This document shows, one piece after another, positions 8,429 to 51,465 of a stretch of DNA of 64,000 nt. Source of the DNA: a virus; IMG/VR virus record IMGVR_UViG_3300028410_000010, positions 1-64,000 of that record. One strand, 5' to 3'. Position 1 is the stretch's first letter. The number at the start of each line of letters is the position of its first letter. Both the position numbers and the translations under genes were made by a program. The notes beneath the pieces are model-generated. The model searched no databases. It was given only the letters and a program-made list of their open reading frames with translations, and was not told where the DNA came from.

Positions 8429-9154
8429 ATGAGGTTGAACAAAGCTACACTGCGCAATTTGATTTTGACAGAGATGAATGCTATAGCACCGTCTGCTAGC
8501 CAAATTGCCAGTGATATTGCTCAACAGTACGGTGACATGATCAGGGACGAGTATTACATTGAGTCCGAACTTGAATCGTTCGTTCACGATGAGCTTATAA
8601 GTTCTGGCTATGCAGATCCTTCCAATTTTGACTTCGACCTTCTAGATGACGTCATGGACGAGCTTGTATTTCAGGGCGTAGTTAATGAGTCAGTATTGAT
8701 TGAATCAGCTCAGATTGGTGTCGCAATTAGATACGCGTCAAAAGTCTTTGGGCAGTACGATGCAAGTGAAATATCAGGCAGAATGATCAAGACACTTGCA
8801 CAGAACATAATTAAAAAATACCCACAACTTAACATTGAAGATGCGATGAAGGCAGTAGAAGTTGCCAAAAAGTCAGGGACAGGAGAACATGATCAGGATC
8901 TAAGACGCAAGATTGCAAAGGTTCTGCCCATGAACCCAACAGAACTCGGTGATATTGCTGGTCTTAAAGGTCACAGTTCGCTCGCAGGAAGAATCACACA
9001 AAAGCTATACAAATCAGGTGATTTTCCGGACAAAGAACCTCAAGAAATATACAAGAGTGTAGTATCGGTCGCACGCGAAATACTTGATAGGCGCAAAGGT
9101 GTCAAGGAGTCGAAAGTGTCTCTTTATAATGTACTTTTCGACTCAAAGAGGTAA
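8429..9154 (+). CDS. Unknown protein with N-terminal LRNLI-type helix, between sheath and tube genes
   Basis: A 241-residue protein I do not recognise. It begins MRLNKATLRNLILTEMNAIA, one member of a set of proteins in this window sharing a short amphipathic N-terminal helix. Residues 20-90 are acidic and helical; the rest is lysine rich (SLAGRITQKLYKSGDFPDKE region). It starts two bases after the sheath stop, so it is translationally coupled, and it sits between sheath and tube genes where T4 has none. A minor tail component or a packaged protein is possible; no function can be assigned. Confidence 0.6.
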   Translation: MRLNKATLRNLILTEMNAIAPSASQIASDIAQQYGDMIRDEYYIESELESFVHDELISSGYADPSNFDFDLLDDVMDELVFQGVVNESVLIESAQIGVAIRYASKVFGQYDASEISGRMIKTLAQNIIKKYPQLNIEDAMKAVEVAKKSGTGEHDQDLRRKIAKVLPMNPTELGDIAGLKGHSSLAGRITQKLYKSGDFPDKEPQEIYKSVVSVAREILDRRKGVKESKVSLYNVLFDSKR

Positions 9155-22742: not shown

Positions 22743-23337
22743 AGAAGACAAGATTGAAAGTAACTACAACACATTTCTTAAACTGTGTAAAAGTACAAAC
22801 ATTAAGCAGCAACCAGACAGAGCAGAAAAGCTACTTCACCTCTTAGAGCATTTTGGTGATAGGCTTGTGCTTTGCCCTGCATCATCAAAAGAAAGATTTC
22901 ATGCTGCTTATCCTGGCGGACTAGTTGATCACTCACTTAGAGTTTTAGCTAATGCACAAAAGATCTGTAAATCATTTGGTTACAAAATAGACTCTGAATC
23001 CTTGATTATGGCATGCCTTTTCCATGATTTCGGAAAGATCGGCGATTTGACCGATGACTACTACGAATATCAGGACAATGAATGGCGAAGAGATAACCTT
23101 GGAGAGTTCTACAAGATTAACTACGACATGCAGAAGATGCCTAATGCAGAAAGAGGACTTTGGCTGCTGCAGCATTTTGGTGTCTACCTAACACTTGACG
23201 AGTGGATTGCAATCAGAACAAATGATGGACCAATCGCAGAAGAAAACAGGTACTACATGATGCATGAACCGACACTAGCACTTATAGTTCAGACAGCTGA
23301 TCGACATGCTTGTCAAGAAGAGAAAGCTATGAGATAG
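22735..23337 (+). CDS. HD-domain phosphohydrolase
   Basis: 200 residues if started at ATG 22735, which overlaps the polymerase stop; an earlier in-frame ATG at 22705 lies within the polymerase gene and has no better ribosome site. HD-superfamily residues: GGLVDHSLRV (first His), LFHDFGK (His-Asp pair) and a final TADRHA (Asp). The AYPGGLxDHSLRV form resembles YhaM-type and phage HD proteins more than YfbR. Metal-dependent hydrolysis of a nucleotide or RNA phosphodiester is expected. Overlap with the family A polymerase suggests a joint role, as in phages where a dATP-specific HD enzyme (DatZ) accompanies a family A polymerase; that parallel is inference. Confidence 0.75.
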   Translation: MLKEDKIESNYNTFLKLCKSTNIKQQPDRAEKLLHLLEHFGDRLVLCPASSKERFHAAYPGGLVDHSLRVLANAQKICKSFGYKIDSESLIMACLFHDFGKIGDLTDDYYEYQDNEWRRDNLGEFYKINYDMQKMPNAERGLWLLQHFGVYLTLDEWIAIRTNDGPIAEENRYYMMHEPTLALIVQTADRHACQEEKAMR

Positions 23338-29099: not shown

Positions 29100-31583
29100 A
29101 TGTACACATTAGAAGAAGTTACTAAGGCTTCACTGGAATATTTTGACGGCGACAAGTTGGCAGCATCTGTTTTTCCATCGAAGTATTCATTACCTAAACT
29201 TGATCAGCCAGGAATGCTGCTTGAACTAACTCCAAAAGACATGCATAAACGTCTTACTGGAGAATTTTCTAGAGCAGAGTCAAGCTTCGACAACCCTATG
29301 CCAGAGTCCGTTATTGAAGAGCTTCTCTCTTCATGGACAGTTATACCACAAGGATCACCCCTCTCAGGAATCGGGAACAAAGACCAGATTCAGAGTTTGT
29401 CAAACTGCTTTGTCATTGACACACCGAAAGATTCTTATGGAGGCATCCTCTACACTGATCAGGAACAAGTCCAGATTATGAAGAGGCGTGGTGGCGTAGG
29501 CTTTGACATCTCACCAATCAGACCGAAGAACCTTCCTACGTCTAATGCTGCAAGGACAACAGACGGCATTGCAATTTTCATGGACCGATTCTCTAACTCG
29601 TGCCGCGAAGTTGCACAAGGCGGCCGAAGAGGTGCGTTGATGATTACCATCAACTGCATGCACCCAGAGATCATGACGTTCATTGGGATTAAACGCGACA
29701 GAACTAGAGTGACAGGCGCCAATATCTCTGTAAAGTTTACAGACGAATTCATGGAAGCTGTAATAGCAGACGAAGAGTTTACTCTAAGGTGGCCTGTAAC
29801 AGCATCTATTGAAGACGCAGAATGTGTCAAGGTTGTTAAGGCAAAAGAAGTATGGGATGCCTTTGTAGAGGCTGCTTGGGACTGTGCTGAACCTGGTGCT
29901 TTGTTCTGGGATAGAATTACGGAAATGAGTCCAGCTGATTGCTACAAAGATCTTGGATATGAGACAATCTCAACCAACCCATGTGCTGAAATTCCACTAA
30001 GCAAGTATGATAGCTGTCGCTTAATGGTTGTAAACTTGATTAAGTTCGTTGAAAATCCATACACACCGAAAGCTACGTTTGATTTCCTAAAGTTCCGAAA
30101 GGTTGCAGGACAGGCACAACGTCTTATGGACGATCTAATCTTTCTTGAAACAGAGGCAGTTGATAAGATCATTGCTAAGATCAGATCAGATAACGAACCA
30201 GACGATGTCAAAGAGATCGAGCTCAACCTCTGGAAGAAGATCAAAGCAGCAACTCTCGGAGGTCGAAGAACAGGCCTAGGAATTACTGCTCTTGGTGATA
30301 CACTCGCTGCATTAGGAATAAGATATGGGACTGATACATCGATTGAAGTTACTGAAGAGATCTACAAGACGCTTGCTATTGGTGCATACTCTTCTTCAAT
30401 AGTTCTTGCAAAAGAGCGCGGTTCATTCCCAGTCTATGATAGCAAGCTTGAAGAGGGACATAAGTTTCTGAATAGAATCTGGAGTTCACTCCCTGACGAT
30501 ATAAACGAAATGAGAAAGAAGTATGGTCGACGCAACATCGCCCTACTAACTACAGCACCCGTTGGTTCTGTTTCGTGTCTATCTCAGACAACTTCTGGAA
30601 TTGAGCCAGCTTATCTCATCTCGCATGTCAGAAGAAAGAAGATTGTCGATTCCAACTCTGACGTCGTTCCTGATTTTATAGATGACATGGGTGACAAGTG
30701 GGAAGAGTTTAAGGTTTACCATCACGGAGCAAAGAAATGGATGGAGATCAATAACAAAACAGAGATTGATGATACTTGCCCATATGTAGGAGCAACTTCA
30801 AATGATGTCGATTGGTCAAAGTCTGTTGAGGTCCAAGCTGCAGCACAGCGTTGGGTCTGTCATGGAATCTCTAAGACATGCAATCTTCCAAAGGAGGCAA
30901 AGCCCGAATTGATCAGTGAGGTTTACTTGAAGGCATGGGAACTTGGATGTAAGGGGTTTACCGTCTATAGAGATGGCTCAAGAACTGGCGTACTTATCAG
31001 TGATGATGCAAAGCCCGAAGCAGAAACAAAGTTCTCAGAGAACAATGCACCTAAGAGGCCGCTAACCTTAAGCTGTGATATTCATCAAAAGACAATCAAG
31101 GGAGAAAAGTGGACAATTCTAGTTGGGCTTCTCGATGGAAGACCATACGAGCTTCTAGGTGGCCTCTCTAAATTTGTAGAGATTCCTAAGAAGTATAAGC
31201 ATGGAATTATCGAAAAGCATCCACGTAAATCACGTGCATCAATCTATGACCTAATTATGGATAGTGATGAAGACGAATTGAGAATTAAGGATGTTGTATC
31301 TGCATTTGAGAATCCGAATCACTCTTCATTCACAAGGATCTTGTCTCTGTCACTTAGACACGGCGCGCCAATCAACTATATGGTTGAACAGCTTGAAAAG
31401 GGAGATAGAGATATGGATCTCTTCTCTTTCTCTAAGGTTATCGGAAGAGTCTTGAAGACATACATCCAAGATGGAACAAGACCCGGCGGAACTAAGGATT
31501 GCCCTGAATGCGGTGCACCTGACGCACTCCACTATACAGAAGGCTGTGTGATGTGTTCTGCTTGTGGACACGGAAAATGCTAA
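29100..31583 (+). CDS. nrdJ: Class II (adenosylcobalamin-dependent) ribonucleotide reductase
   Basis: 827 residues in a single chain with no R2 or activase gene nearby, which points to class II. Motifs: LSNCFVIDTP (first redox Cys), NPCAEIPLSKYDSCRLM (thiyl-radical Cys and second redox Cys), LLTTAPVGSVSCL and a C-terminal CPECGAPDALHYTEGC then CSACGHGKC, the Cys-rich tail that passes electrons to the active site. It makes deoxynucleotides without needing oxygen but needs host or environmental B12. A thioredoxin gene follows within 300 bases and probably serves as its reductant. It starts 8 bases after the helicase stop. Confidence 0.85.
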   Translation: MYTLEEVTKASLEYFDGDKLAASVFPSKYSLPKLDQPGMLLELTPKDMHKRLTGEFSRAESSFDNPMPESVIEELLSSWTVIPQGSPLSGIGNKDQIQSLSNCFVIDTPKDSYGGILYTDQEQVQIMKRRGGVGFDISPIRPKNLPTSNAARTTDGIAIFMDRFSNSCREVAQGGRRGALMITINCMHPEIMTFIGIKRDRTRVTGANISVKFTDEFMEAVIADEEFTLRWPVTASIEDAECVKVVKAKEVWDAFVEAAWDCAEPGALFWDRITEMSPADCYKDLGYETISTNPCAEIPLSKYDSCRLMVVNLIKFVENPYTPKATFDFLKFRKVAGQAQRLMDDLIFLETEAVDKIIAKIRSDNEPDDVKEIELNLWKKIKAATLGGRRTGLGITALGDTLAALGIRYGTDTSIEVTEEIYKTLAIGAYSSSIVLAKERGSFPVYDSKLEEGHKFLNRIWSSLPDDINEMRKKYGRRNIALLTTAPVGSVSCLSQTTSGIEPAYLISHVRRKKIVDSNSDVVPDFIDDMGDKWEEFKVYHHGAKKWMEINNKTEIDDTCPYVGATSNDVDWSKSVEVQAAAQRWVCHGISKTCNLPKEAKPELISEVYLKAWELGCKGFTVYRDGSRTGVLISDDAKPEAETKFSENNAPKRPLTLSCDIHQKTIKGEKWTILVGLLDGRPYELLGGLSKFVEIPKKYKHGIIEKHPRKSRASIYDLIMDSDEDELRIKDVVSAFENPNHSSFTRILSLSLRHGAPINYMVEQLEKGDRDMDLFSFSKVIGRVLKTYIQDGTRPGGTKDCPECGAPDALHYTEGCVMCSACGHGKC

Positions 31584-32781: not shown

Positions 32782-33566
32782 TGAAAATCACACCGAGAAT
32801 AGAATTAGTTAGAATTCATAAATCTGTGGTATCGTCTTACCCAATAAACAGTCTTAGACATTCGTTAACATCGCTTTCTAAGCTTAAAACAGGATGGTTT
32901 GTAGCTGAAGCTGAAAGTGCACTTGTCAATTTAAATTCTGCAGTACTTAAAGAGTGCGGAGATCTTAGGATTACGGATGGGCTTAGAGAATTCAAGACAC
33001 AGGCAGAGCTTCGTGATCGCTATATAAGATGGGTCAAAGCAGGGAAGCCTGACAGGTCATCCAGCAAATACGACTCAAAGACCATGAAAAACGTATTTGT
33101 TGCCGAGCCCGGATTCTCTTTCCACAATTCAGGGCGAGCGATTGATATACACGTTGACATGCTAAAGTTTCCAGGTGTTCCAGCCGACAAGCAACTTGAT
33201 AAATTGTGGGAGTTAGCTGTTCCATTAGGTTGGAGACCAGTTATCAAAGGGCCCTGGGAAGGAAAATCAGAATCTTGGCACTTTGACTATATGGGAATCT
33301 GGTCAAAAACCTATGACGTCCTTGGGTATAAAGAAGCTGCGATGTGTGCGTCTCTAGATATTGGTGTCGGAGATTTCTTAAGAGTAAGAAATCGTGCACT
33401 ACAAGCGCAGTTACATCGATGCGGAATGAACGTAGGATCGATTGACGGCTATCTTGGAAAGAAAACCAAGAAGGGATTAGAAGTTTTGGGACTAAGTGAC
33501 AAGACTGCTGACTACACAACGCTTTACAAGATTGAAACAGCAACAGAATACAAGGAACATTTCTAA
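32781..33566 (+). CDS. Endolysin: M15 (VanY-type) peptidase with peptidoglycan-binding domain
   Basis: 261 residues. The M15 zinc-peptidase motifs are FSFHNSGRAIDIH (His115, Asp122) and ESWHFDYM (catalytic Glu164, His167). A C-terminal PG_binding_1-like repeat reads NRALQAQLHRCGMNVGSIDG and YLGKKTKKGLEVLGL (about 205-240). It should cleave peptide bridges in peptidoglycan, most likely for lysis at the end of infection. No signal peptide or transmembrane segment is seen, so it would need a holin; the candidate membrane genes are 26 kb downstream. It overlaps ThyX by one base. Confidence 0.82.
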   Translation: MKITPRIELVRIHKSVVSSYPINSLRHSLTSLSKLKTGWFVAEAESALVNLNSAVLKECGDLRITDGLREFKTQAELRDRYIRWVKAGKPDRSSSKYDSKTMKNVFVAEPGFSFHNSGRAIDIHVDMLKFPGVPADKQLDKLWELAVPLGWRPVIKGPWEGKSESWHFDYMGIWSKTYDVLGYKEAAMCASLDIGVGDFLRVRNRALQAQLHRCGMNVGSIDGYLGKKTKKGLEVLGLSDKTADYTTLYKIETATEYKEHF

Positions 33567-34255
33567 TGAAGATTGAACTATACGAAGACGGAATTGGTGA
33601 AGTAGAACTTATTAGTCACATGGGCACTGACTTAAGCGTTGTTAACGCTGCTCGAGTTTCTTTTGGTGGACAAAAAGGAGAAGTTGACAGTAAAGATGAA
33701 AAGCTTATCAACTATCTTGCCAAGCACAATCATACGTCACCATTCGAGCACTGCACAGCAACATTTAGATTTACAGTGCCACTTTACGTTAGATCACAGC
33801 ATCATCGTCATAGGACATGGGCATACAACGAGATTAGTAGAAGATACACTGACATTAACATGAGGTTCTATGAACCACAAGAGTTTAGAACACAGCATAA
33901 ATCTAACAGACAGGCATCGAACGAAAATGAATTGATCGACCCTGACATTGTTTCACTCGATAACATAAAAACAAAAGCGTCAGAAGCAGTCCTCGTGCAT
34001 CATATACACAGTCTTGCACTTTTTGAAAAATTGCTTGACGCAGGAGTCTGTCGCGAACAAGCGAGAGGAGTATTACCTCAAAATCTTTATACAGAATATT
34101 ATGGTACAGTAAATTTGCATAACTTGATGCATTTTATTAGATTGAGAACCCATGAAGGTGCCCAGTGGGAAATTCAGAAAGTTGCTGAGGCACTAAACAC
34201 AATTGCATTGACATTGTGGCCAGTATCCGTCGCGGCATTTGCAAATAGGACATAA
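33566..34255 (+). CDS. thyX: Flavin-dependent thymidylate synthase ThyX (canonical copy)
   Basis: 229 residues, the normal ThyX length. The signature is RHRTWAYNEISRRY (81-94); the usual RHRxxS serine is alanine here, while the second Ser and RRY are kept. ARGVLPQNLYTEYYGTVN and GAQWEIQKVAEAL supply the remaining dUMP/FAD contacts. It makes dTMP from dUMP with FAD, NADPH and methylene-tetrahydrofolate. It sits within an operon of overlapping genes. A second, divergent ThyX is found at 38726. Confidence 0.88.
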   Translation: MKIELYEDGIGEVELISHMGTDLSVVNAARVSFGGQKGEVDSKDEKLINYLAKHNHTSPFEHCTATFRFTVPLYVRSQHHRHRTWAYNEISRRYTDINMRFYEPQEFRTQHKSNRQASNENELIDPDIVSLDNIKTKASEAVLVHHIHSLALFEKLLDAGVCREQARGVLPQNLYTEYYGTVNLHNLMHFIRLRTHEGAQWEIQKVAEALNTIALTLWPVSVAAFANRT

Positions 34256-36491: not shown

Positions 36492-36734
36492 ATGAAGTAT
36501 CATTTCGCAGACGAACTAATTGGGCAACTTAGAGACACATTGCAACTCGCGATCTTGTCGGGAACAGACATCATTGATCATATTCGAATGATCGAAGTTG
36601 AACCGACAGAAGATGGTAAGCTTGCTCTTACTGCAGATTATAGGGAGCTTTTTGAAAAGCAAATTAACTCTATGATGCAAGAAGTCGAAGACCACCAGAC
36701 AAAGATGCTATCAGAAGACAACGAGAGTGAATAA
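36492..36734 (+). CDS. Unknown small acidic protein upstream of MazG-like gene
   Basis: 80 residues with a helical start (ADELIGQLRDTLQLAILSGT) and an acidic coiled end (INSMMQEVEDHQTKMLSEDN). TAGGAGATAGT precedes ATG, giving a clear ribosome site. Stop overlaps the next ATG (TAATG). No family recognised; coupling suggests a link with the MazG-like protein. Confidence 0.5.
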   Translation: MKYHFADELIGQLRDTLQLAILSGTDIIDHIRMIEVEPTEDGKLALTADYRELFEKQINSMMQEVEDHQTKMLSEDNESE

Positions 36735-37150
36735 TGGATCGCTTTGATGAAGATGCGCCAATGCCGGTGCCTCCTGTCCCTGACAGGTTTGAAGAGATGT
36801 TTAGACTTCGTGAAGAGTTTATGCATGCTTTAAGTAGGAATCGACCCGGAGCACAGTCTGAATGGCCTTTGGACTTAAGGTCAAAAGAGTCACAGAGGAA
36901 CTTAAGAGACGTCTCTCTACGTGGCGTAGAAGAGGTCTTTGAAGCACTTAATCATCTAAAGAACTGGAAACCTCATCGCAAGACAGAAATGCCTGACTTT
37001 GATCGTGACAAGTTTCTAGAAGAATGGGTAGATGCTATGAATTACTTCTTCTCTGTGCTTATTCTTGCAGGATTCACACCTCATGAAATATATGAGTCCT
37101 ATGTAGAAAAGGATCGAGTTATCCATGAGCGACTTAGAAGTGACTATTAA
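36734..37150 (+). CDS. MazG/dUTPase-type all-alpha NTP pyrophosphohydrolase-like protein
   Basis: 138 residues. Helix DVSLRGVEEVFEALNHLKNW carries the EExxE-type metal site and FLEEWVDAMNYFFSVLILAG the second acidic helix, followed by FTPHEIYESYVEKDRVIHER, the pattern of all-alpha dUTPase and MazG enzymes. It would hydrolyse a (deoxy)NTP to NMP and pyrophosphate. The N-terminus is proline rich. The downstream gene contains a paralogous domain fused to a HAD nucleotidase, so the two probably work on the same nucleotide pool. Confidence 0.65.
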   Translation: MDRFDEDAPMPVPPVPDRFEEMFRLREEFMHALSRNRPGAQSEWPLDLRSKESQRNLRDVSLRGVEEVFEALNHLKNWKPHRKTEMPDFDRDKFLEEWVDAMNYFFSVLILAGFTPHEIYESYVEKDRVIHERLRSDY

Positions 37151-37193: not shown

Positions 37194-38114
37194 ATGAAAG
37201 ATACTTTTAAAGAAATGCTACTAAAGCAAAAGCGATTTTCCGAGAACTTTATTGATCACGAGAATCTAACTCAAGAAGATAGAGAGAAACTTACGTTGCA
37301 GTTCTCTGCTTCTTTACAAAAGGAAGTTGGCGATATCTTAGATGGCGTCAATTATCGTCACCACCGTGCAAAAGATGAAAGTCCAGAGCTTAGCAAAATC
37401 TTACACGAATCTGTCGACGCCTTCAGGTATCTTCTAGCTATCTTAAACACGTGGGGGATTACTCACGATGACTTTGAAGACGCCTTCAGTGTACGTGATC
37501 TGCATCTAAACACGCGCTTTAATAAAGAGCAGGTCAAGTGGGAAGGGCAGCCCGTTATCATCGTTGATGTTGATGACGTTTTGACGCCCTTTAAAGACGA
37601 ATGCACACGATGGGTTAAGGCAAATACTGACTTCGTTCCTGATGAAGATTCAACTGCTTACTACTCAATCACAGAAGAAATGTACATGAAGTTCATTGAG
37701 GCTAGACGACTCAAATCAATGAGAACAAACATTAGCATCGTAGAAACGATAAACAAACTCTACGACGAAGGATACTGGATCCATCTATTGACAGCGCGAC
37801 CAGCCGATCTCCTTGTATGCAAATACGACACTTACGCCTGGCTTGAAAAGAGTGGTATCAAATGTCATCGAATTAGTTTCTCACCTGAAAAATATTTGTG
37901 GCTAGCAAGAACTGATTACTACAAGAGCGAAAAGGTTGTTTGTGCTATTGATGATTCACCAAAGCATGCAACAGAATACGCAAAGCACGGAGTACATACA
38001 CTATCACCCAGAACATCAGTTAATGCTGATCTAGAAAATGTTGAAAATGTGACAATGTACGATACAGCGGATGGGTTGTACAATTTTGTTAAAAGACTCA
38101 CAAAGAAGGACTAA
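37194..38114 (+). CDS. Fusion: MazG-like domain plus HAD-type (5'-nucleotidase) phosphatase
   Basis: 306 residues. The N-terminal 115 (LQKEVGDILDGVNYRHHR; LHESVDAFRYLLAILNTWGI) resemble the previous MazG-like protein. From residue 120 a HAD domain begins: VIIVDVDDVLTPF (motif I, nucleophile Asp125 and Asp127), LLTARPADLL (motif II) and VVCAIDDSPKHATEYAKHG (motif IV). This looks like a two-step enzyme: NTP to NMP plus PPi, then NMP to nucleoside. The HAD part resembles deoxyribonucleotidases (NT5C type). Such an enzyme could remove an unwanted dNTP completely. It has its own promoter. Confidence 0.7.
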   Translation: MKDTFKEMLLKQKRFSENFIDHENLTQEDREKLTLQFSASLQKEVGDILDGVNYRHHRAKDESPELSKILHESVDAFRYLLAILNTWGITHDDFEDAFSVRDLHLNTRFNKEQVKWEGQPVIIVDVDDVLTPFKDECTRWVKANTDFVPDEDSTAYYSITEEMYMKFIEARRLKSMRTNISIVETINKLYDEGYWIHLLTARPADLLVCKYDTYAWLEKSGIKCHRISFSPEKYLWLARTDYYKSEKVVCAIDDSPKHATEYAKHGVHTLSPRTSVNADLENVENVTMYDTADGLYNFVKRLTKKD

Positions 38115-38725: not shown

Positions 38726-39709
38726 ATGCCACAAGACAAAAAATTAAAGCCCGTAGAATTTCCCATGGCGATTCGCTTTGACGAAAAGCCAACAACTGAG
38801 TTCAAGAACGATCTTGACTCTTTAAATGTAGTTTTGCTCGACTATCCTGATCCTGAGCGTGTCAGGCGAATGGTCTATCAGTTTATCAATGCTACATGGG
38901 AAGACGCACCAGGAATGCACAACCCGGACGATGTCCCAGCATGGAAGGGACATGAAGCACTCGAACTCGCTCTCAATTACAAAGCACTTCCGACTGTTAT
39001 GGAGACTTTGGACTTTACCTTCCGCATTGAAGGCATCGATCTACAGACAGTCACCCATCTCATCAGACACAGAACGTTCTCATTCAGCGCTCAGTGTACT
39101 GGAGATCGTTGGCAGTCACATAGCAATGCGCTAGTTCCAGGTCCTGTCCAGAACAGTCCAGAACTCTACGAGCGTTGGAAGAAGCACGTTGAAGATGCAA
39201 AGGAGTTGTACTGTGATATGATTGATTCTCGTAAGATTTCAATCATGGATGCAAGGACAATCCTTCCTAGAGCTATTGAGACACACTACTACGCCCGATG
39301 CAACCTAAAGGATATGCTCAACTTCCTTCGTCAGCGTTTTGATAAGCAGATTCAGCCTACAACAGACAATGTGATGGCATACCAGATGTTTATTGCTGTC
39401 GCTAAGTTGTTCCCAGAGATTACATCATGCATCAATCCGCATGCAGCTTCTCGCCACTACATTGCAACAGCTCGTACTGGAAAGGCTACGAATCTGTACT
39501 GGCCCGATGCCGACTCCGATAAGTTTGACTGGCACCCAGAAGACTTCATCTACAACTGCTACAGAAATGAAGTTAACGGAACAGACCCAGAACTTGGTAA
39601 GCCCGAGAACTTTAGATTCGACCAACTAATGGAAGGTTATGACAAGGAAGTGAAAGACATTCGAGAAGAATATTCTGCATGGAAAACTGACGTTGGGTGG
39701 GTAGAATGA
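38726..39709 (+). CDS. Divergent second ThyX-family enzyme
   Basis: 327 residues, about 100 longer than ThyX. LIRHRTFSFSAQCTGDRW (112-129) matches RHRxxS but the rest of the signature (NExSxRY) is replaced by SAQCTGDRW. ARTILPRAIETHYYARCNLK and MLNFLRQRFDKQIQPTTDNV follow the ThyX fold, though the usual AQWEI becomes IQPTT. The N- and C-terminal extensions (YCRNEV, WHPEDFIYNCYR) are absent from the canonical copy at 33566. It may methylate or hydroxymethylate another pyrimidine nucleotide, or act on dUMP in a complex. It shares a promoter with a deoxyribosyltransferase-like gene. Confidence 0.7.
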   Translation: MPQDKKLKPVEFPMAIRFDEKPTTEFKNDLDSLNVVLLDYPDPERVRRMVYQFINATWEDAPGMHNPDDVPAWKGHEALELALNYKALPTVMETLDFTFRIEGIDLQTVTHLIRHRTFSFSAQCTGDRWQSHSNALVPGPVQNSPELYERWKKHVEDAKELYCDMIDSRKISIMDARTILPRAIETHYYARCNLKDMLNFLRQRFDKQIQPTTDNVMAYQMFIAVAKLFPEITSCINPHAASRHYIATARTGKATNLYWPDADSDKFDWHPEDFIYNCYRNEVNGTDPELGKPENFRFDQLMEGYDKEVKDIREEYSAWKTDVGWVE

Positions 39710-39734: not shown

Positions 39735-40178
39735 ATGAAGAAGTGTTACATAGCAAGCGGTTGGTTTAGTCCAGAGTGGCTCGAAGAGCTTGAGGCAATC
39801 AAGAAAGTTCTTGACGACAATGGGTTGAATTACTTCTCGCCACGTGATGAAGCTGTTGCACCTGCTGATGCATCCCTTTCGCTGCAAGACAAGATCTTCA
39901 GTGGCAACATCAAGGGCATGCAAGATTCAGACTGGATGATCTGCAACACTCGAAACAAGGACATGGGTTCAATCTTCGAGGCAGGGTATTTCCATTGCCT
40001 AGATCGACCAATCGTTTACTTCTGTGCAGGTTTACCTGAAGGCGCTAAGTTTAACCTTATGTTGTCGGCATCTGGTGTCACAGTCTGTACATCACTTGAA
40101 GATCTTGATGCCTATATCAAGCGCTCTTTAGCAGATGGATCACTTGCTGTTGAGATGTATGAAGGCAACATTGAGTAA
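39735..40178 (+). CDS. Nucleoside 2-deoxyribosyltransferase-like protein
   Basis: 147 residues, the normal length. CYIASGWFSPEWLEELEAIK is the N-terminal strand and loop, YFSPRDEAVAP the substrate loop, SDWMICNTRNKDMGSIFEAG carries the nucleophilic Glu (D-x-G-S-x-x-E-x-G), and RPIVYFCAGL a later strand. The enzyme transfers deoxyribose between bases or hydrolyses nucleoside 5'-phosphates (DNPH/Rcl-like relatives). Following directly after a divergent ThyX, it may supply or remove an unusual nucleotide. Confidence 0.72.
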   Translation: MKKCYIASGWFSPEWLEELEAIKKVLDDNGLNYFSPRDEAVAPADASLSLQDKIFSGNIKGMQDSDWMICNTRNKDMGSIFEAGYFHCLDRPIVYFCAGLPEGAKFNLMLSASGVTVCTSLEDLDAYIKRSLADGSLAVEMYEGNIE

Positions 40179-43285: not shown

Positions 43286-43317
43286 AAGCTGCTAGAGTAA
43301 TGACAGCTAGGAGTATA

Positions 43318-46300
43318 ATGTCAAAGTTAATTCGACCACCTAACCGATTCGTCGGTCTACACGCTCACGATGGATTCTCTACATACGATGGTTTAGGATA
43401 TCCATCAGATCACGTCGAATTCGTTCTTAACAACGAAATGGACGCTTGGTCGATTACAAATCACGGAAATGCAAACTCTCATGCTCACGCAAGGAAAGAG
43501 TATGAAAAGAGAAGAAAGAAAGGTCAGAAGTTCCGTCAGTTGTATGGCGTAGAGTTTTACTTTGTCCCCTCTCTGACACAGTGGCGATTAGATTATGAAG
43601 CTCACAAAGCACAAAAGGCTGCAGCAAAGGCGAAAACTTCTAATGAGGAAGAGGAAGGACACGTCATTGAGTCTGAGGAAGAGACAAGATCGTCCGGAAA
43701 GCCAGATTGGCAGCGATACTATCACCTAGTTGTCTTGGCCAAGAATCAAGAAGGTCTTCACAATATTTACAGGCTCGTCAAGAAGTCTTTCAAGCATGGA
43801 TTCTATCGCTTCCCTCGTATTGACTATGACATGCTCAAAGAACATAGCGAAGGTCTTATCGTAAGTACAGCATGCGTCGGTGGCGCAGCTTCTGGTTTGA
43901 TCTACAAGGAGTTTCCTGATAAGAAGTTCGATGAGCTTCACCCTGATCTTCTAACTGGCCAAGCTGCTGTCAATGTCATGAATCGCCTCGAAAACATGAC
44001 AGACCGATTTGTCGACGCTGTTGGTCAAGAAAACTTCTTTCTCGAGATGCAGTTCAACAGCCTCCCAGCCCAGCATCTAACAAATGCTGCACTAATCAAG
44101 CTTGCTGAGAAGACTAGTATTCCACTTGTGGCCACTGCTGACTCTCACTATCCAGCACCTGAATTGTGGCAAGCACGAGAACTCTATAGACGCCTTGGTT
44201 GGAAGCGAAAAGATGACGAGGGTCTTCCGAAGAAAGAAGATCTAAAGTGTGAACTCTATCCTAAAAATGCACAACAGATGTGGGATGAGTACCTTGCACA
44301 TAAAGACAAGTACCCATTCTATGAAGGCACCGAAGCAATTGTTCGTGACTCAATTGAGCGAACACACGACATTTGCTGGGATATGTGCTCTGACACATGG
44401 ATTGACACTGAAGCAAAGCTACCTAACTTTTCTACCAAAGAAGAGTCAGCCTTCAATCAGCTTGCAAAACTCGTTAAGGAAGGGTTGATCAAGGAAGGTT
44501 TTGCTAAAAACGCAGAGTATATCAAGCGCGCTCACTATGAGTTGTCTGACATCAAGCACCTTGGGTTTGAAAACTATTTCTTGGTCATGTATCAGGTCTT
44601 TAACCTTGCTGCTAAATCAACGCTCTTTGGATGTGGTCGAGGATCAGGTGCTGGTTCACTTGTCAACTATCTTCTCGGTGTTACACAGGTGGATCCACTG
44701 AAATACGGTTTACTTTGGGAGCGATTCCTTGGTCGACACCGTACTTCTTGGCCTGACATCGACTCTGATGTTGGCGACCGCGACGTCTTGATTAACGCTG
44801 CACGTGAACTTTACGGCAACGACGCAGTCATTCCTGTGTCTAACTTCAATACTTTGAAACTCAAGTCATTACTAAAGGACATTTCTTCATTCTACGATAT
44901 TCCTGCTTCTGAGGTCTTTGATCTTACTCGTGGCCTACAGGAAGAGGTCATGCCTCAAGCTAAGGACTCCAACACTGAGAAGTCGGTGTTCGTTCTCAAG
45001 CACGCAGATTGTATGAAGTATTCTAAGAAGTACCGTGCATTCATGGATGAGTACCCAGAGGTTAAGCAACACATTGCTGCTCTTTTCATGCAGAACAAGA
45101 GTCTGGGTCGTCACGCTGGTGGTGTCATTATCGCTCCACCTGAGCAGCTTGAAAGAACGATGCCGATCATCTCTGTTCGCGGTGAACTACAAACACCTTG
45201 GACAGAAGGTATGAACTTCCGTAACCTTGAAGACAACGGATTCATTAAGTTTGACTTCCTTGGGTTGACGCTCATGGAAGACGTTAGAAACTGTATTCGT
45301 CGAATCTTAATCAAGGAAGGTAATCCCAAGCCGACGTTTGATGAAGTAAAAGCCTACTTTGACAAGCACTTAAATTGCAGAACAAACGATCCCGATGATC
45401 TGCATGTCTTCAAGACAGCATATCATCAGCAAGACTTTGCGCCAGGCCTCTTCCAATTTACTGCTGAAGGTGCTCGTGAATTCTGTCGACAGGTCAAGCC
45501 AACAGATGCAACCGAGCTAGGCGCAATTACTGCAATCTACCGACCCGGTCCACTCCAGGCTAACGTGCACACCGACTATGTTGCAACAAAAAAACAGCTG
45601 CTAGAAGGTGTTGCAATTACTTATGATCACCCAATTATTGAGAAAATCCTAAGTCCGACCCTCGGATATATCTCCTTCCAAGAGCAGTTCATGCTACTTG
45701 CACAAGAGCTAGCTGGATTCTCACCTGCGGAATCTGACAAACTTCGTAAGACTCTTGTTAAGAAGTCACTTGATACAATGGGTAAGAAGGGCGATGAGCG
45801 TGCTGCTGCTAGAGACCAGTTTGTCAAGGGCGCCAAGAAACTCCATGACATTCCAGAGCATATCTCAGAAGAACTCTGGAAAAAGATCGAATTCTTCAGC
45901 GTCTATGGATTTAACAAGTCTCACGCCATTGCATATGCAATTGACTCTTACTTCGGCGCGTGGCTCTTCACTTATCATCCAGAGCAGTGGATTGCAACAA
46001 TCTTGCAGTCTGAGAACAACAGTCCGACAGGTCTATCAAAGGCAATTGTTGAACTTAAGCGTCTCGGCTATGAAATTGCTCCGATCGACATTAATCACTC
46101 TGGATTTGAATGGGAGTACTCATACGAAATCAATGCCTTCGTACCTCCGCTTTCTTCTATCAAGAGAGTTGGTAAGACTGCAGCTGCTGAGATCCTAGAA
46201 TCTCGTCCATTCAAGAGTCTTGAAGATCTATTGTTTGATGACCAAGGCAAGTGGTATCACTCTAAGATGAACAAGGGATCATTTGATTCACTCTGCAAAA

Positions 46301-46884
46301 TCGAAGCGTTCAACTCACTTGCTGAATTCAAAGACGGTACTTTTGAAAATCACCGACAACTACATGCGCTCTTGATGGACAATTGGAACGTATTGCGAAA
46401 AGGAAAGAAGGGTAAGTCTGCTGCGGGTATTAAGCGTGATATCAAGAACGGTAAGGCAGTCCCAGACATTCTCCCAGATCTAATCAAGTCAGTCGAGTTC
46501 GATGAAGATTGGACTCGAACCGAGAAGATCACATTCAACGCTGACCTTAGAAGTGCCATTAGTAATGAACAGTTGTTCCCAGAAGGGTTTTTGGAAAGGC
46601 TTGAAGAGAAGGATATTCCTCCGTTGACAGAAATCCCAGGTGGCGTCGAAGCAGTTGCATGGTTCCTATGTCGAGAAGTTCAAGTTAAAAAGACCAAGAA
46701 CGGCAAGACGTATCACAGAATCAGAGCACAAGATGGCGACAACAATCTTGTTTGGCTCAAGGTTTGGGGTAATCTCAAAGAAGAGATCCCAAGGTTCAGT
46801 GTTTGGATGTGTCAAGCTAAGGGCGACGACAAGTGGGGTCCATCGACCACAGCATGGAAGATTCGTCCACTGGATCTAGACTGA
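43318..46884 (+). CDS. dnaE: DNA polymerase III alpha subunit (family C)
   Basis: 1188 residues from ATG 43318 (TAGGAG 5 bases upstream); ATG 43300 is an alternative. The PHP domain begins LHAHDGFSTYDGLGYPSDHV and carries a charged insert (about residues 105-135, SNEEEEGHVIESEEE). The polymerase core has FGCGRGSGAGSLVNYLLGVT, WPDIDSDVGDRD near residue 480 (catalytic Asp pair) and SLGRHAGGVIIAP, with GAITAIYRPGPL and FNKSHAIAYAIDSYFGAWLF further on. The C-terminus has an OB-like segment (WFLCREVQVKKTKNG). It is the likely replicative polymerase. Family C polymerases are uncommon in T4-like phages, which use family B. Confidence 0.9.
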   Translation: MSKLIRPPNRFVGLHAHDGFSTYDGLGYPSDHVEFVLNNEMDAWSITNHGNANSHAHARKEYEKRRKKGQKFRQLYGVEFYFVPSLTQWRLDYEAHKAQKAAAKAKTSNEEEEGHVIESEEETRSSGKPDWQRYYHLVVLAKNQEGLHNIYRLVKKSFKHGFYRFPRIDYDMLKEHSEGLIVSTACVGGAASGLIYKEFPDKKFDELHPDLLTGQAAVNVMNRLENMTDRFVDAVGQENFFLEMQFNSLPAQHLTNAALIKLAEKTSIPLVATADSHYPAPELWQARELYRRLGWKRKDDEGLPKKEDLKCELYPKNAQQMWDEYLAHKDKYPFYEGTEAIVRDSIERTHDICWDMCSDTWIDTEAKLPNFSTKEESAFNQLAKLVKEGLIKEGFAKNAEYIKRAHYELSDIKHLGFENYFLVMYQVFNLAAKSTLFGCGRGSGAGSLVNYLLGVTQVDPLKYGLLWERFLGRHRTSWPDIDSDVGDRDVLINAARELYGNDAVIPVSNFNTLKLKSLLKDISSFYDIPASEVFDLTRGLQEEVMPQAKDSNTEKSVFVLKHADCMKYSKKYRAFMDEYPEVKQHIAALFMQNKSLGRHAGGVIIAPPEQLERTMPIISVRGELQTPWTEGMNFRNLEDNGFIKFDFLGLTLMEDVRNCIRRILIKEGNPKPTFDEVKAYFDKHLNCRTNDPDDLHVFKTAYHQQDFAPGLFQFTAEGAREFCRQVKPTDATELGAITAIYRPGPLQANVHTDYVATKKQLLEGVAITYDHPIIEKILSPTLGYISFQEQFMLLAQELAGFSPAESDKLRKTLVKKSLDTMGKKGDERAAARDQFVKGAKKLHDIPEHISEELWKKIEFFSVYGFNKSHAIAYAIDSYFGAWLFTYHPEQWIATILQSENNSPTGLSKAIVELKRLGYEIAPIDINHSGFEWEYSYEINAFVPPLSSIKRVGKTAAAEILESRPFKSLEDLLFDDQGKWYHSKMNKGSFDSLCKIEAFNSLAEFKDGTFENHRQLHALLMDNWNVLRKGKKGKSAAGIKRDIKNGKAVPDILPDLIKSVEFDEDWTRTEKITFNADLRSAISNEQLFPEGFLERLEEKDIPPLTEIPGGVEAVAWFLCREVQVKKTKNGKTYHRIRAQDGDNNLVWLKVWGNLKEEIPRFSVWMCQAKGDDKWGPSTTAWKIRPLDLD
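43322..43355 (+). repeat. 34-bp direct repeat, copy 2 (within dnaE start)
   Basis: Second copy of the sequence at 42740-42773. It begins at the second codon of dnaE, so it encodes the DnaE N-terminus SKLIRPPNRFVG. Confidence 0.9.
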
Positions 46885-47081
46885 TGTATAGATACATGCG
46901 AGGTGATCTAGTCCGACATAGGGCCACACGAAGCCTCGGAATCGTGATGAATGTGAGATGCTCAGAAATTACATACATCACAACAACAAAAGTCATTGAT
47001 TCAGAAACACTCACGATACACACCAGATTTTTTCAGGACTATGAATTAGTTGAGGGATTGCATGAAACGAAACTGCCTTAA
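46884..47081 (+). CDS. Small SH3-like barrel protein (GDLV family)
   Basis: 65 residues from ATG 46884, which overlaps the dnaE stop (TGATG). MRGDLVRHRATRSLGIVMNV, then strands around ITYITTTKVIDSETLTIHT and a final FQDYELVEG. The GDLV-x(5-12)-GIV pattern is that of short KOW/SH3-like barrels. First of three consecutive members (46884, 47062, 47280). Function unknown; coupling to dnaE could be only positional. Confidence 0.6.
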   Translation: MYRYMRGDLVRHRATRSLGIVMNVRCSEITYITTTKVIDSETLTIHTRFFQDYELVEGLHETKLP

Positions 47082-47283
47082 CTCCGGTGACTTAGTTAAG
47101 ATAACTGTCTATGCTAAAGGTTACAGTGAACACTTTAAAGTTGACACAGTCGGTCTAGTCATCTCATTTAACACTAGATCATCTTGTGTTGTCTATACAA
47201 TGTTAGCACCTGATGGTTGTATTATAAAGCGAACAGACATAAATGCTAAGCTAATACAATCAATGAAGCAGGTAGTAGTATGA
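47062..47283 (+). CDS. Small SH3-like barrel protein (GDLV family)
   Basis: 73 residues from ATG 47062 (GAGGGA 4-9 bases upstream), overlapping the previous gene. SGDLVKITVYAKGYSE, VDTVGLVISFNTRSSCVVYT and LAPDGCIIKRTDINAKLIQS show the family order: GDLV strand, G-L/I-V strand, Y-x-x-L-x-x-DG hairpin, closing strand. Confidence 0.62.
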   Translation: MKRNCLNSGDLVKITVYAKGYSEHFKVDTVGLVISFNTRSSCVVYTMLAPDGCIIKRTDINAKLIQSMKQVVV

Positions 47284-47504
47284 GTAATGTAGGTCGTGGT
47301 GACCTGGTAGAAATTCGTGTCTGGAAAGCAACGGGACATTTTGGTTCGCTCAAGAACAAAACAGTAGGCATCATAACTGATGCCCAAATTCCAGCACCTT
47401 ATTCCGAAGGATTGTGCTACAAGATATACACACCACTTGGTTTACTATATCGTGATTCAGATTGTTTAGAAATAATTCAAAGGGACAAAACGACATGGGT
47501 TTGA
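47280..47504 (+). CDS. Small SH3-like barrel protein (GDLV family)
   Basis: 74 residues, start overlapping the previous stop (ATGA). GRGDLVEIRVWKATGHFGSL, NKTVGIITDAQIP, YKIYTPLGLLYRDSDCLEII. Same layout as its two upstream neighbours but diverged in sequence, so the trio came from older duplications. Its end overlaps the start of the PurA/PurZ-like gene. Confidence 0.62.
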   Translation: MSNVGRGDLVEIRVWKATGHFGSLKNKTVGIITDAQIPAPYSEGLCYKIYTPLGLLYRDSDCLEIIQRDKTTWV

Positions 47505-48568
47505 TCGTTGACATCGTTACAGGTTTAGCTTGGGGCGATGAAGGAAAAGGAAAGATAGCAGCAGGACTAGCATCAACAGGTGACTATGACATGGTCGCGA
47601 GATGGAGCGGAGGTTCAAATGCAGGGCACACAATTCATGTGCCCGGAAAAGATGGAGAAGAAAAGGTATACAAAACACATATTGTCCCTTGCGGTGTACT
47701 CTTCGGCATCAAGAGTGTGATTGGTCCTGGTTGTGTTGTTAATGTTGAGAAACTGATGCGAGAGATCTCCCTATTAGAGAAGGCAGGACATAACGGTTCA
47801 CTTGTCAAAGTATCTCCTCGTGCTCATATCGTTACGAATGATCACATTAGAGAAGATTCTGGAGAGTTCAAGGAAAGATTGGGTACTACAGGTAACGGTA
47901 TTGCACCAGCGTATAGGGACAAATATGGACGAACAGGAAAACTTGCAAAAGACTACCTCCCTGCACACATGATTTGGGATGAAGTACTCGGAAAGAAGGT
48001 GTTATGTGAAGGAGCACAAGGATGTTGGCTTGATGTAGACTACGGAAACTATCCATATGTTACATCTTCAAATACAACACCCGCTGGTGCACTATCTTTA
48101 GGCTTCTCACACTATTCAATACGTGATGTCTACGGTGTTGCTAAGATGTATGACACAAGAGTCGGAATCGATCCTAGTTTCGATCCAGAGCCGGAGAATC
48201 ACGCTCGTTTTAAAAAAGATCTCGCCGTAGCAGGTAAAGAGATTGGCGTAACAACTGGAAGGGCACGAGATACAAACTTTCTCAATGTTGACAAACTTAT
48301 CAAAGCAATCAATATTACTGGATCAAACAAAATCTACATCAATAAGCTTGACGTATTTTCGACAGCAGTAAAATTGAGCTATTTAAACGCCACTATGGGG
48401 CACAAAGAAGAGTGGCCATTCTTTTATAACGGTGTGTTGCGCCGATATGATTCAGAAGAAGCCATGTTACAGTCAATCACAAGTGCTATTCGAAAAAATG
48501 CAGCGTTCCCTATTGATCACATAGAGTTTCTAGACAGTCCGTCATGGACACAACGAGGTACTTTTTAA
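47495..48568 (+). CDS. Adenylosuccinate synthetase-like enzyme (PurA or PurZ type)
   Basis: 357 residues from ATG 47495 (AAAGGGA about 10 bases upstream). P-loop-like GDEGKGK (14-20, with Asp15), RWSGGSNAGHTIH (catalytic His45), APAYRDKYGRTG, CEGAQGCWLDVDYGNYPYVT and VYGVAKMYDTRVG are all diagnostic. It is shorter than bacterial PurA (about 430), near the archaeal size. Phage relatives called PurZ join Asp to dGMP to begin synthesis of 2-aminoadenine nucleotides. From memory, classical PurZ replaces the loop Asp with Ser; here Asp is kept, so it is either a true PurA or a PurZ0-type enzyme. It is adjacent to a guanine-pathway enzyme. Confidence 0.85.
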   Translation: MGLIVDIVTGLAWGDEGKGKIAAGLASTGDYDMVARWSGGSNAGHTIHVPGKDGEEKVYKTHIVPCGVLFGIKSVIGPGCVVNVEKLMREISLLEKAGHNGSLVKVSPRAHIVTNDHIREDSGEFKERLGTTGNGIAPAYRDKYGRTGKLAKDYLPAHMIWDEVLGKKVLCEGAQGCWLDVDYGNYPYVTSSNTTPAGALSLGFSHYSIRDVYGVAKMYDTRVGIDPSFDPEPENHARFKKDLAVAGKEIGVTTGRARDTNFLNVDKLIKAINITGSNKIYINKLDVFSTAVKLSYLNATMGHKEEWPFFYNGVLRRYDSEEAMLQSITSAIRKNAAFPIDHIEFLDSPSWTQRGTF

Positions 48569-49582
48569 ATGAGACTTGACCTACAAAAACCGGAGTTGCT
48601 CTGTTTCGACGACATTCTCATTCGACCGCAATACTCTAAGATCCCATCTAGGAGCTTGATTAGCTTATATTCATTCTGTGGCGGTCTTGATCTTTCACTG
48701 CCTATTATTTCAAGTCCGATGGACACTGTAACTGAAGATGTTATGTGTAATGATATGACAAGGTCCGGCGGAATCGGCGTCATTCACAGATATAACTCTA
48801 TCGAAGATCAGGTCGAAATAGCAAAGAAAGCACACAACAAAGTCATAGCGATCGGCGTATCAGGTGACTATATCGAGCGCGTCGATGCACATATCCAGGA
48901 GGGTGCTAACAAGTTTTGTATTGATGTAGCCCATGGACACACAGAAATGATGAAAAAAGCGCTCTATGAACTACGCAAGCAGTACGGATTGGGCATCCAC
49001 ATAATGGCAGGCAATGTAGCCACGAAGAAAGGTTTCGACGACTTGTCAGACTGGGGCGCAAACAGTATTCGAGTCGGAATCGGCGGTGGAAGTATTTGTA
49101 GTACTCGACTCCAGACAGGACACGGAATGCCAACATTGTCTTCAATTCTTGAGTGTGCAACCTCGACAAGACCGGCAGCTTTGATTGCCGACGGCGGCCT
49201 AAGAAACGCAGGAGACATCTCTAAGGCCCTTGCAGCAGGTGCTGATGCTGTTATGCTGGGTAGTATGTTAGCTGGGACAGCATCTACTCCTGGTGAGGCT
49301 TACATGTATAAAGGCCAGCTCATGAAGGTTTATCGAGGTATGGCCAGTAAAGATGCGCAAATTGATTGGAGAGGTAAAGCTGCGTCTCTTGAAGGTATTA
49401 CAACAAGAATCCCATTTAAAACTGACAGCGTAGAAACTATCCTGGGAGAAGTAGAATCCAGAGTTAAAAGTGCACTAAGCTACTCAGGATGTATTAGTAT
49501 CGAAGAGTTTCAAGCTAAATGTGTGTTATTAAGAGTCTCTGGAAATTCACTTAGAGAATCACACACACACATTTTAAAGTAG
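48569..49582 (+). CDS. IMP dehydrogenase / GMP reductase family enzyme without CBS domains
   Basis: 337 residues starting right after the PurA/PurZ-like stop. LCFDDILIRPQYSKIPSRS, LPIISSPMDTVTEDVM, GIGGGSICSTRLQTGHGMP (catalytic Cys177), LIADGGLRNAGDISKALAAG, VYRGMASKD and the terminal ESHTH. The CBS pair of most IMPDHs is missing. TGxGxP after the Cys loop and lack of an obvious Arg-Tyr pair in the flap recall GMP reductase; the ESHTH end recalls IMPDH. Either it feeds guanylate (dGMP for a PurZ) or converts GMP to IMP for a PurA. Confidence 0.8.
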   Translation: MRLDLQKPELLCFDDILIRPQYSKIPSRSLISLYSFCGGLDLSLPIISSPMDTVTEDVMCNDMTRSGGIGVIHRYNSIEDQVEIAKKAHNKVIAIGVSGDYIERVDAHIQEGANKFCIDVAHGHTEMMKKALYELRKQYGLGIHIMAGNVATKKGFDDLSDWGANSIRVGIGGGSICSTRLQTGHGMPTLSSILECATSTRPAALIADGGLRNAGDISKALAAGADAVMLGSMLAGTASTPGEAYMYKGQLMKVYRGMASKDAQIDWRGKAASLEGITTRIPFKTDSVETILGEVESRVKSALSYSGCISIEEFQAKCVLLRVSGNSLRESHTHILK

Positions 49583-49683: not shown

Positions 49684-49908
49684 ATGGCTAATTTCTTGAT
49701 AGGTCTGATCGTTGTAGCTGGCATTGTCAGCTCAGCAATTTTAGTGTTTTCAATTCCAGGATTTGCTACAATGTTGTACCAAAAGTATCGAAGAATACAG
49801 ATGGACAATGAGAAGTTCTATCGAGAACGCCTCAAAACTGAGATAATTCAACAGCAGTTACTGAATGAACAGTTGTACAATCCAAGTGAGAAAAAGAATG
49901 ACAATTAA
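49684..49908 (+). CDS. Small membrane protein with cytoplasmic coiled coil
   Basis: 74 residues: one N-terminal transmembrane helix (FLIGLIVVAGIVSSAILVFS) and a charged coil (RRIQMDNEKFYRERLKTEII; QQQLLNEQLYNP). The architecture resembles small i-spanin-like or membrane scaffold proteins, but partners are not obvious here. The end overlaps the methyltransferase start. Confidence 0.5.
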   Translation: MANFLIGLIVVAGIVSSAILVFSIPGFATMLYQKYRRIQMDNEKFYRERLKTEIIQQQLLNEQLYNPSEKKNDN

Positions 49909-50689
49909 ATGGACAGGATCTAAAAAGTGGCTTCTACCAGTTTTCAGAAGTATGGACGTGTGCTACGAGCCTTTTGCAGGAAGTGCATCTGTCTCGCTAA
50001 CGCATGCAAAGGAGGCATACTTAAACGATACCTGTTTGCCTTTGATTAACATGTACAAAGAGCTTGCACTTCGTAAGAACGATTACTTGACTGAAGTTCG
50101 TGATCTATTCGATAGCATTCAAGGTGATCCTGATCCACGGGCTAAATTCTACGAGGTTCGCAATAACTTTAAGAGCACTGGCGAGCAAGATCCAGTTGCC
50201 TTCTTAGCTATTCTTTACGCAGGATTTAATGGGTTATGGCGGGCCAGCAAGAATGGCTGTAACGTGCCTTATGGAGGCCCTAGGAGGTTTCCATTTGATA
50301 AGCTGTTAATTACCCCATCTGATAAAATAAAAGCAGCCACATGCCTTTCCTGGGAACATTCGCTACCTGATCTTGAAGACGAAGATGCTGTTATTTATGC
50401 AGATGCACCGTACTCATCTACGTTTACAAGCTATACTCCAGCTGGGTGGACCATCACAGATGATATTAAGCTAGTGAAAGCACTTGGAAAGAGAAAAAAC
50501 CCTGTCATTATCTCTTGTCTCAAGACAGACGCTAACGAAAGAAATCTGAAGGCGCATGGATTTGATTTTGTTACACTTGGTAAACTCTATTCAAATGGAC
50601 AGAAGAAAGCTAAGCGTGTTGAAGAAATCTTGGCATTTAACGACAGAGGCATCAACTTTATCAAATTTAGTGAACTCCAAACGTCATGA
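49898..50689 (+). CDS. D12-class DNA adenine methyltransferase (Dam-like)
   Basis: 263 residues from ATG 49898, which overlaps the previous gene and begins MTIKWTGSKKWLL like Dam proteins. Motif I is CYEPFAGSASVSL (22-34), binding S-adenosylmethionine; motif IV is DAPY (169-172) where most have DPPY. FLAILYAGFNGLWRASKNG is the conserved middle block and FNxxxxxxxN-like regions follow. It should methylate adenine, probably in a short palindrome such as GATC, to protect phage DNA or time replication. The DAPY variant might reflect a changed target base. Confidence 0.82.
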   Translation: MTIKWTGSKKWLLPVFRSMDVCYEPFAGSASVSLTHAKEAYLNDTCLPLINMYKELALRKNDYLTEVRDLFDSIQGDPDPRAKFYEVRNNFKSTGEQDPVAFLAILYAGFNGLWRASKNGCNVPYGGPRRFPFDKLLITPSDKIKAATCLSWEHSLPDLEDEDAVIYADAPYSSTFTSYTPAGWTITDDIKLVKALGKRKNPVIISCLKTDANERNLKAHGFDFVTLGKLYSNGQKKAKRVEEILAFNDRGINFIKFSELQTS

Positions 50690-50892
50690 AATTGTCTGTT
50701 GACCTTCAAGCAAACGATATCGTAAGGTTCTACTTTGTGACATCGAACCAAGTCGTCATCGGTCTTATTACCGCCCGATACAAGGACGAAGCTGGAATGA
50801 TCTACTACGATATCTTGATTGACGGAAGTGTATACAAGAGATATTTGTACAAAGTGACTCTCTTAAGTCGCGTAAAGGAAGAAGCACAATGA
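50686..50892 (+). CDS. Small SH3-like barrel protein
   Basis: 68 residues overlapping the methyltransferase stop. LQANDIVRFYFVTSNQVVIG, LITARYKDEAGMIYYDILID and a final KVTLLSR strand; NDIV replaces GDLV. Same order of strands as the GDLV proteins at 46884-47504. Function unknown. Confidence 0.55.
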   Translation: MKLSVDLQANDIVRFYFVTSNQVVIGLITARYKDEAGMIYYDILIDGSVYKRYLYKVTLLSRVKEEAQ

Positions 50893-51104
50893 TGTACAAG
50901 AAAGGCGACCTCGTATCTCTGGGACATCCAGATCATCAGAAACACATCGTCAGCAATGACCTTATGCTGGTGGTATCTGTGAATAAAGGTAACAAACATC
51001 AAAAGTACAGATGTTTGCTTACAGATGGACGTGTCCTGGACTTTTTTCTACAAAATGCAGAGCTTATTTTAAGAATAGTTCGCAGAATTGATTCAAAGGA
51101 GTAA
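50889..51104 (+). CDS. Small SH3-like barrel protein (GDLV family)
   Basis: 71 residues, ATGA overlap with the previous gene. MMYKKGDLVSLGHPDHQKHI, DLMLVVSVNKGN, YRCLLTDGRVLDFFLQNAEL. Clear GDLV opening and Y-x-x-L-x-DG hairpin. Stop is one base before the next ATG. Confidence 0.6.
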   Translation: MMYKKGDLVSLGHPDHQKHIVSNDLMLVVSVNKGNKHQKYRCLLTDGRVLDFFLQNAELILRIVRRIDSKE

Positions 51105-51105
51105 A

Positions 51106-51465
51106 ATGTTTAAGATAGGTGACTACGTTAAGTTTATAGACAGAGATACAAAGCATGTCTTCTCAGTAGACGAAATCAGAATAACTCGCAAGGGAGTATT
51201 CTACGATTTGATCGGTCTAGCAGGAGAAACTCACAATGTATCTCACAAGAATATTCATGAAATGTACGTAAAATCTTTGTTTAAATACCAGATTGGAGAC
51301 ACAGTTACAACACAAGTTTCTCTCAAGATAGAGGAAATTCAAGATCAGCGGGTCGACGGCAACGTTCATTTTCAGTATCGTTGCAAAATTGAAAATAAAG
51401 GTTTTCCACTCGCTAACGCATTTCTTGATGAATCTGTTATAACAGAAATGAAAAGTGACGATTGA
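51106..51465 (+). CDS. Double SH3-like barrel protein
   Basis: 119 residues from ATG 51106 (AAGGAG 4-9 bases upstream). Two barrels in tandem: FKIGDYVKFIDRDTKHVFSV ... FYDLIGLAGETHNVSHKNI, then FKYQIGDTVTTQVSLKIEE ... FQYRCKIENKGFPLANAFLD. Thus this member has two copies of the unit found singly in the other proteins, showing duplication within the family. Confidence 0.6.
   Translation: MFKIGDYVKFIDRDTKHVFSVDEIRITRKGVFYDLIGLAGETHNVSHKNIHEMYVKSLFKYQIGDTVTTQVSLKIEEIQDQRVDGNVHFQYRCKIENKGFPLANAFLDESVITEMKSDD

Follow-up and report, generated by a model that had tools for sequence, protein, structure and literature searches.

The window that we analyzed is a stretch of 64,000 nucleotides of an uncultivated phage, taken from a virus record in IMG/VR (IMGVR_UViG_3300028410_000010), which has 92,315 bases in all. 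It contains two adjacent genes that appear to act on purine nucleotides. The first of these (P0001; 47495-48568, + strand) begins with an ATG at 47495 and encodes 357 amino acids, including the motifs GDEGKGK and NAGHTIH. It belongs to the adenylosuccinate synthetase family, PF00709 (E = 9e-72, 242 bits, which meets Pfam's cut-off for the family), and on the basis of this match, its active-site residues, its place in a tree, and its predicted fold, we identify it as a viral PurA. Its stop codon (TAA, 48566-48568) is followed immediately by the ATG of the second gene (P0002; 48569-49582, + strand), which has a likely ribosome binding site, GAGGT, 5' of its start. P0002 encodes 337 amino acids of the family that includes IMP dehydrogenase (IMPDH) and GMP reductase (GMPR) (PF00478; E = 1.4e-87, 294 bits); it has no CBS domains, and its Cys177 lies within GGGSICSTR. 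Given its family, the alignment of its flap, and its tree, it is probably a GMP reductase. An earlier, sequence-only reading of this DNA had described a PurA- or PurZ-like gene followed by a CBS-less IMPDH- or GMPR-like gene at 47495-49582, and we recovered both open reading frames at these positions, with the same lengths, motifs, and cysteine.

P0001 sits between P0002 and a gene for a DnaE-type DNA polymerase III alpha subunit (43300-46884, + strand; 1194 amino acids; 538 bits to TIGR00594). The window also encodes the large chain of ribonucleotide reductase (29100-31583, + strand; 827 amino acids; PF02867, E = 8e-91) and, downstream of the pair, a D12-class N6-adenine DNA methyltransferase (49865-50689, + strand; PF02086, E = 1.6e-21), which we mention only as context; counts of GATC and GANTC were uninformative. 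Short open reading frames on both sides of the pair (46833-47504 and 50686-51465) look paralogous by eye and share a GDLVxI...G.V pattern.

The sequence-only reading proposed that P0001 might be PurZ, or else a PurZ0-type enzyme, which would convert dGMP to a precursor of 2-aminoadenine. These enzymes can be told apart from PurA at one loop position: Ser replaces Asp13 (E. coli numbering) in 100% of 147 phage PurZ and PurZ0 proteins, and the Asp is retained in 99% of PurA proteins (PMC12884076). We fetched the PurZ or PurZ0 genes of phiVC8, S-2L, ZP6, Bm1, K300, BpsS-140, and Goodman along with E. coli purA, and we aligned P0001 with E. coli PurA and five of the PurZ/PurZ0 proteins (from phiVC8, S-2L, Bm1, BpsS-140, and Goodman). 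The alignment is supported by the fact that its columns recover the contact residues that have been named for the S-2L enzyme (S23, R146, T205, V241, R280, and Q308; PMC8342488). All five of the aligned PurZ/PurZ0 proteins have Ser at position 13, while P0001 has Asp15, and this Asp is invariant among 45 viral sequences. The sequence-only reading had counted the loop Asp against its own proposal; it was correct to do so, and the residue turns out to be decisive. When we checked the other residues of the active site, P0001 had kept every PurA residue that we tested: D15, H45, Q175, R256, R258, K284, and D286 correspond to Asp13, His41, Gln224, Arg303, Arg305, Lys331, and Asp333 of E. coli PurA. 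Lys284 and Asp286 are GTP-binding residues of the PurA type; the four aligned PurZ proteins have Phe at 331 and Asn or Gln at 333. PurZ0 does not fit any better than PurZ, because it too has Ser at the defining position (PMC12884076): in PurZ0 of Microbacterium phage Goodman, positions 13 and 303 are Ser and Lys, and the loop in the structure of PurZ0 from Gordonia phage Archimedes (7vf6) reads GSEAKG. Position 303 is Lys or Leu in phiVC8, S-2L, Archimedes, and Goodman and Arg in P0001, but it is a poorer guide than position 13, as Arg is found both in PurA and in the PurZ of Bm1.

The tree that the sequence-only reading had called for also places P0001 with cellular PurA and apart from PurZ and PurZ0. 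In a maximum-likelihood tree of 53 proteins (LG+C20+F+G4), PurZ and PurZ0 together form one side of a branch with support of 97/94, and P0001 lies outside. It falls within a clade of 18 viral PurA sequences (100/99), which groups with the bacterial PurAs and several from archaea (100/99), while that of Pyrococcus falls outside. The AlphaFold model of P0001 (pLDDT 90.6) has PurA as its nearest folds: most PurA structures matched it with E = 2e-26 to 2e-21, as compared to 3e-18 to 2e-14 for the PurZ and PurZ0 structures, a weaker range that also includes two PurA structures from Legionella. P0001 resembles E. coli PurA in its fold, in its side of the tree, and in all of the active-site and GTP-binding residues tested, but it belongs to a distinct viral clade, shares 35% identity with the E. 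coli protein in our alignment, and is shorter (357 versus 432 amino acids), without the internal segment that follows Arg146. It has in common with the PurZ of phiVC8 and S-2L and the PurZ0 of Archimedes and Goodman that it is phage encoded, that it belongs to the same superfamily, and that it is of the short form. The curated cut-offs of NCBIfam do not decide the identity of P0001 or of P0002. P0001 scores 105.9 bits against the PurZ model (NF038379), below its cut-off of 300, and 233 bits against the PurA equivalog, which is below that model's cut-off of 402; the protein is shorter and has diverged.

The genomic context was the other reason to suspect 2-aminoadenine, and here the sequence-only reading was partly right. 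The window does encode a compact family A polymerase-like protein (21516-22742; 408 amino acids), an HD protein (22705-23337), and two MazG-like proteins (36734-37150 and 37194-38114). But the HD protein belongs to PF01966 and not to PF12917, the YfbR-like family of DatZ, and its likeness to DatZ of S-2L is confined to the surroundings of the HD motif (E = 0.013). We saw no resemblance between the first MazG-like protein and MazZ of S-2L, and we found no match to DUF550 or DUF5664 for the MazG-like proteins of the window. No YfbR-like DatZ (PF12917) is present in this record or in 31 contigs that carry this PurA. Other observations that could be cited for PurZ are that it shares the family PF00709 with P0001, that PHROG 1211 is named 2-aminooxy adenylosuccinate synthetase, and that the window has HD, MazG-like, and nucleoside 2-deoxyribosyltransferase (NDT)-like genes elsewhere (the NDT-family protein is at 39735-40178). 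In PurZ0 phages, the accompanying proteins are DutZ and DmtZ, the latter of which is NDT-like. Nevertheless, the Asp at the defining site, the separation in the tree, the low score against the PurZ model, and the missing DatZ lead us to reject both PurZ and PurZ0, and we consider it very improbable that P0001 acts on dGMP. More generally, phage genes of the PurA family are easily mistaken for PurZ, as the PurZ-like name of PHROG 1211 illustrates, so checking for Asp or Ser at this site and looking at the partner gene are useful rules for annotation. We also note that the compact family A polymerase-like protein co-occurs with a full DnaE and that the HD reading frame overlaps the end of the polymerase's.

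Viral PurAs of this type are widespread. A scan of viral contigs with P0001 as a single sequence gave no matches, but a scan with an alignment of four relatives yielded at least 540 confirmed viral relatives, these coming from the first 600 stretches. All 80 of these that we examined contain GD[E/C/T]GKG[K/R] and TTGRxR, as do the relatives L041, L050, L051, L057, and L083. In the phage collection that we searched, the best-ranked match for P0001 was from the huge phage LR756501 (37.5% identical), and the remaining matches listed were PurZ proteins or came from records that were unannotated or looked bacterial. This clade is abundant in environmental virus contigs and has hardly been seen in that collection. 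The PurA of LR756501, an uncultured phage of 735 kb, is encoded at 345344-346345 of LR756501.1; it is found near Bacteroidota in the tree (84/86), away from the viral clade, and appears to be a separate acquisition. A contig that was binned as a bacterium (JAUSGQ010000020.1) encodes a PurA from within the viral clade, so the contig is probably viral.

What does P0002 do? In IMPDH, the hydrolysis step requires a mobile flap with Arg418 and Tyr419, and the loss of Arg418 slows hydrolysis about a thousandfold, while GMPR relies on Cys186, Thr188, and Glu289 (PMC2525682). The segment of the flap with Arg-Tyr is a gap in P0002 and in all of the aligned relatives of its type, and it is likewise missing from canonical GMPRs. 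C177, T179, and E275 of P0002 correspond to the three E. coli GMPR residues and are invariant in 32 sequences, but IMPDH has these residues as well, so by themselves they do not discriminate. P0002 resembles the GuaC enzymes (E. coli GuaC and human GMPR2) in its lack of CBS domains, its short flap without Arg-Tyr, and its Cys, Thr, and Glu; it differs in that it does not have their GGVAEYRAxEG flap motif. In our tree, it belongs to a separate third subfamily, loosely associated with Legionella 3r2g, and not among known GMP reductases. 3r2g, which is its closest solved relative (41% identical in the fold alignment), is also free of CBS domains and of the Arg-Tyr segment. We found no assay of 3r2g, which was deposited as an IMPDH, or of any member of P0002's subfamily. 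Proteins of PF00478 are already known from phages (XacN1, phiYS40, and Cr30), and P0002 is about 30-33% identical to these. Judging from its sequence, we think that P0002 is probably a GMP reductase rather than an IMP dehydrogenase.

The partners of viral PurA in other contigs also bear on this question. We looked at 50 long viral contigs that carry this PurA, and 41 of them (82%) also have a PF00478 gene. As a control, we used 21 contigs that were picked by their relatives of the window's ribonucleotide reductase: 5 of these have PF00478 (24%), and 1 has PF00709. The difference in the frequency of PF00478 has p = 5e-6 by Fisher's test, or p = 0.0014 if records shorter than about 40 kb are set aside, but the contigs are related to each other, so both values are too small. 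Most of the partners belong to three subfamilies that are apparent from the sequence of the flap: the window's own type (GMASKDAQxDWRGxxSLEG), a second type with GMASKDVVEDY, and a GuaC type with GMSS...YRAxEG, which is the partner in some relatives only. We placed five GuaC-type partners in the tree, and these joined E. coli GuaC and human GMPR2 in a group with support of 100/100. Within one cluster of PurAs (single-linked at 70% identity), the partner has the VVEDY flap in 33 loci and is a GuaC-type GMPR in 7. That different subfamilies are swapped beside the same PurA suggests that the partners have one activity in common, and the only known activity among these subfamilies is GMP reductase. 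GMP reductase may be the shared activity, perhaps of the window's own type as well.

Putting these together, we think that the pair is probably a module with which the phage reroutes guanine nucleotides to adenine nucleotides. The sequence-only reading had offered this as a fallback, from GMP through IMP to AMP, and it is now the best-supported explanation, so the misleading hint of a genome with modified bases gives way to a metabolic module that can be tested. What we observe is gene content, and we infer each reaction from it. P0002 would convert GMP to IMP, and P0001, given its complete set of PurA active-site residues, would use GTP to join IMP and aspartate into adenylosuccinate. The host's PurB would then release AMP; since PurB is absent from this record and from all 50 of the 50 PurA contigs, adenylosuccinate must be split by the host's enzyme. 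Kinases from the host and the phage's ribonucleotide reductase would presumably take AMP on to dATP for ordinary adenine DNA. In this way, the phage would take over the IMP branch point during infection. We did not find a phage PurA paired with a GMPR in the open literature, which is weak evidence of absence.

Alternatively, P0002 could be an IMP dehydrogenase, in which case the phage would hold both branches from IMP (PurA towards AMP, and IMPDH towards XMP and then, by way of the host's GuaA, GMP) and would relieve both purine bottlenecks instead of turning guanine into adenine nucleotides. Overall, P0002 is more similar to IMPDH than to GuaC, even though the tree gives it a separate subfamily: it scores 247 bits against IMPDH and 188 bits against canonical GMPR (below all of the curated cut-offs); its best sequence match is 3r2g; and its 50 nearest folds are all named as IMPDH, although the structure search could not tell IMPDH and GMPR apart, and the flap is modelled with low confidence. 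Also, a near-invariant Trp-Arg (267-268) lies earlier in the flap and might stand in for the Arg-Tyr dyad. The scores, the folds, the Trp-Arg, and the many records that have a P0002-type gene but no PurA all weaken the case for rerouting. On the other hand, the Arg-Tyr segment is absent from every aligned relative of P0002's type, GuaC-type GMPRs adjoin viral PurA in other contigs, and none of 34 records has a GuaA above the cut-off (although the host's GuaA could serve). We regard an IMPDH as possible, if rather unlikely.

It could also be that each gene is an auxiliary gene in its own right, that the two share no pathway, and that chance or gene movement placed them side by side. Of 34 long records with a P0002-type gene, 27 show no PurA, so this enzyme also serves phages that lack PurA, and the two genes can lie as much as several kb apart in other contigs. 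But chance does not easily account for the excess of PF00478 over the control contigs, nor for three different partner subfamilies beside viral PurA, and we find this explanation improbable. If we return to rerouting as our preferred explanation, we can speculate further. The PurA clade, specific to phages and shared by many uncultivated ones, may have been joined several times to different IMPDH/GMPR subfamilies, giving a guanine-to-adenine module that overrides the host's control of purine synthesis, for instance by draining GTP or by escaping the inhibition of host PurA by (p)ppGpp. We are doubtful enough about this broader idea to offer it only as a conjecture.

Clustering of 81 loci with a P0002-type gene showed that 60 have a DnaE of this family and 59 have a gene that is dUTPase-like, as labelled from its sequence. 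The window also encodes two proteins of the ThyX family (33566-34255 and 38726-39709), and the second of these is more divergent from the Pfam model. Beyond the window, the record contains a GroEL-like gene (L084:8971-10581) and an ATPase, MoxR-like by eye, that adjoins a VWA-like protein (L085:8855-11435). Finally, nine open reading frames in the window (at 8429, 9710, 41561, 42208, 57733, 58080, 58328, 58609, and 63641) have a common N-terminal motif similar to MKhxKxxLRxLIREEL, which we take to be reminiscent of the capsid-targeting sequences of T4.
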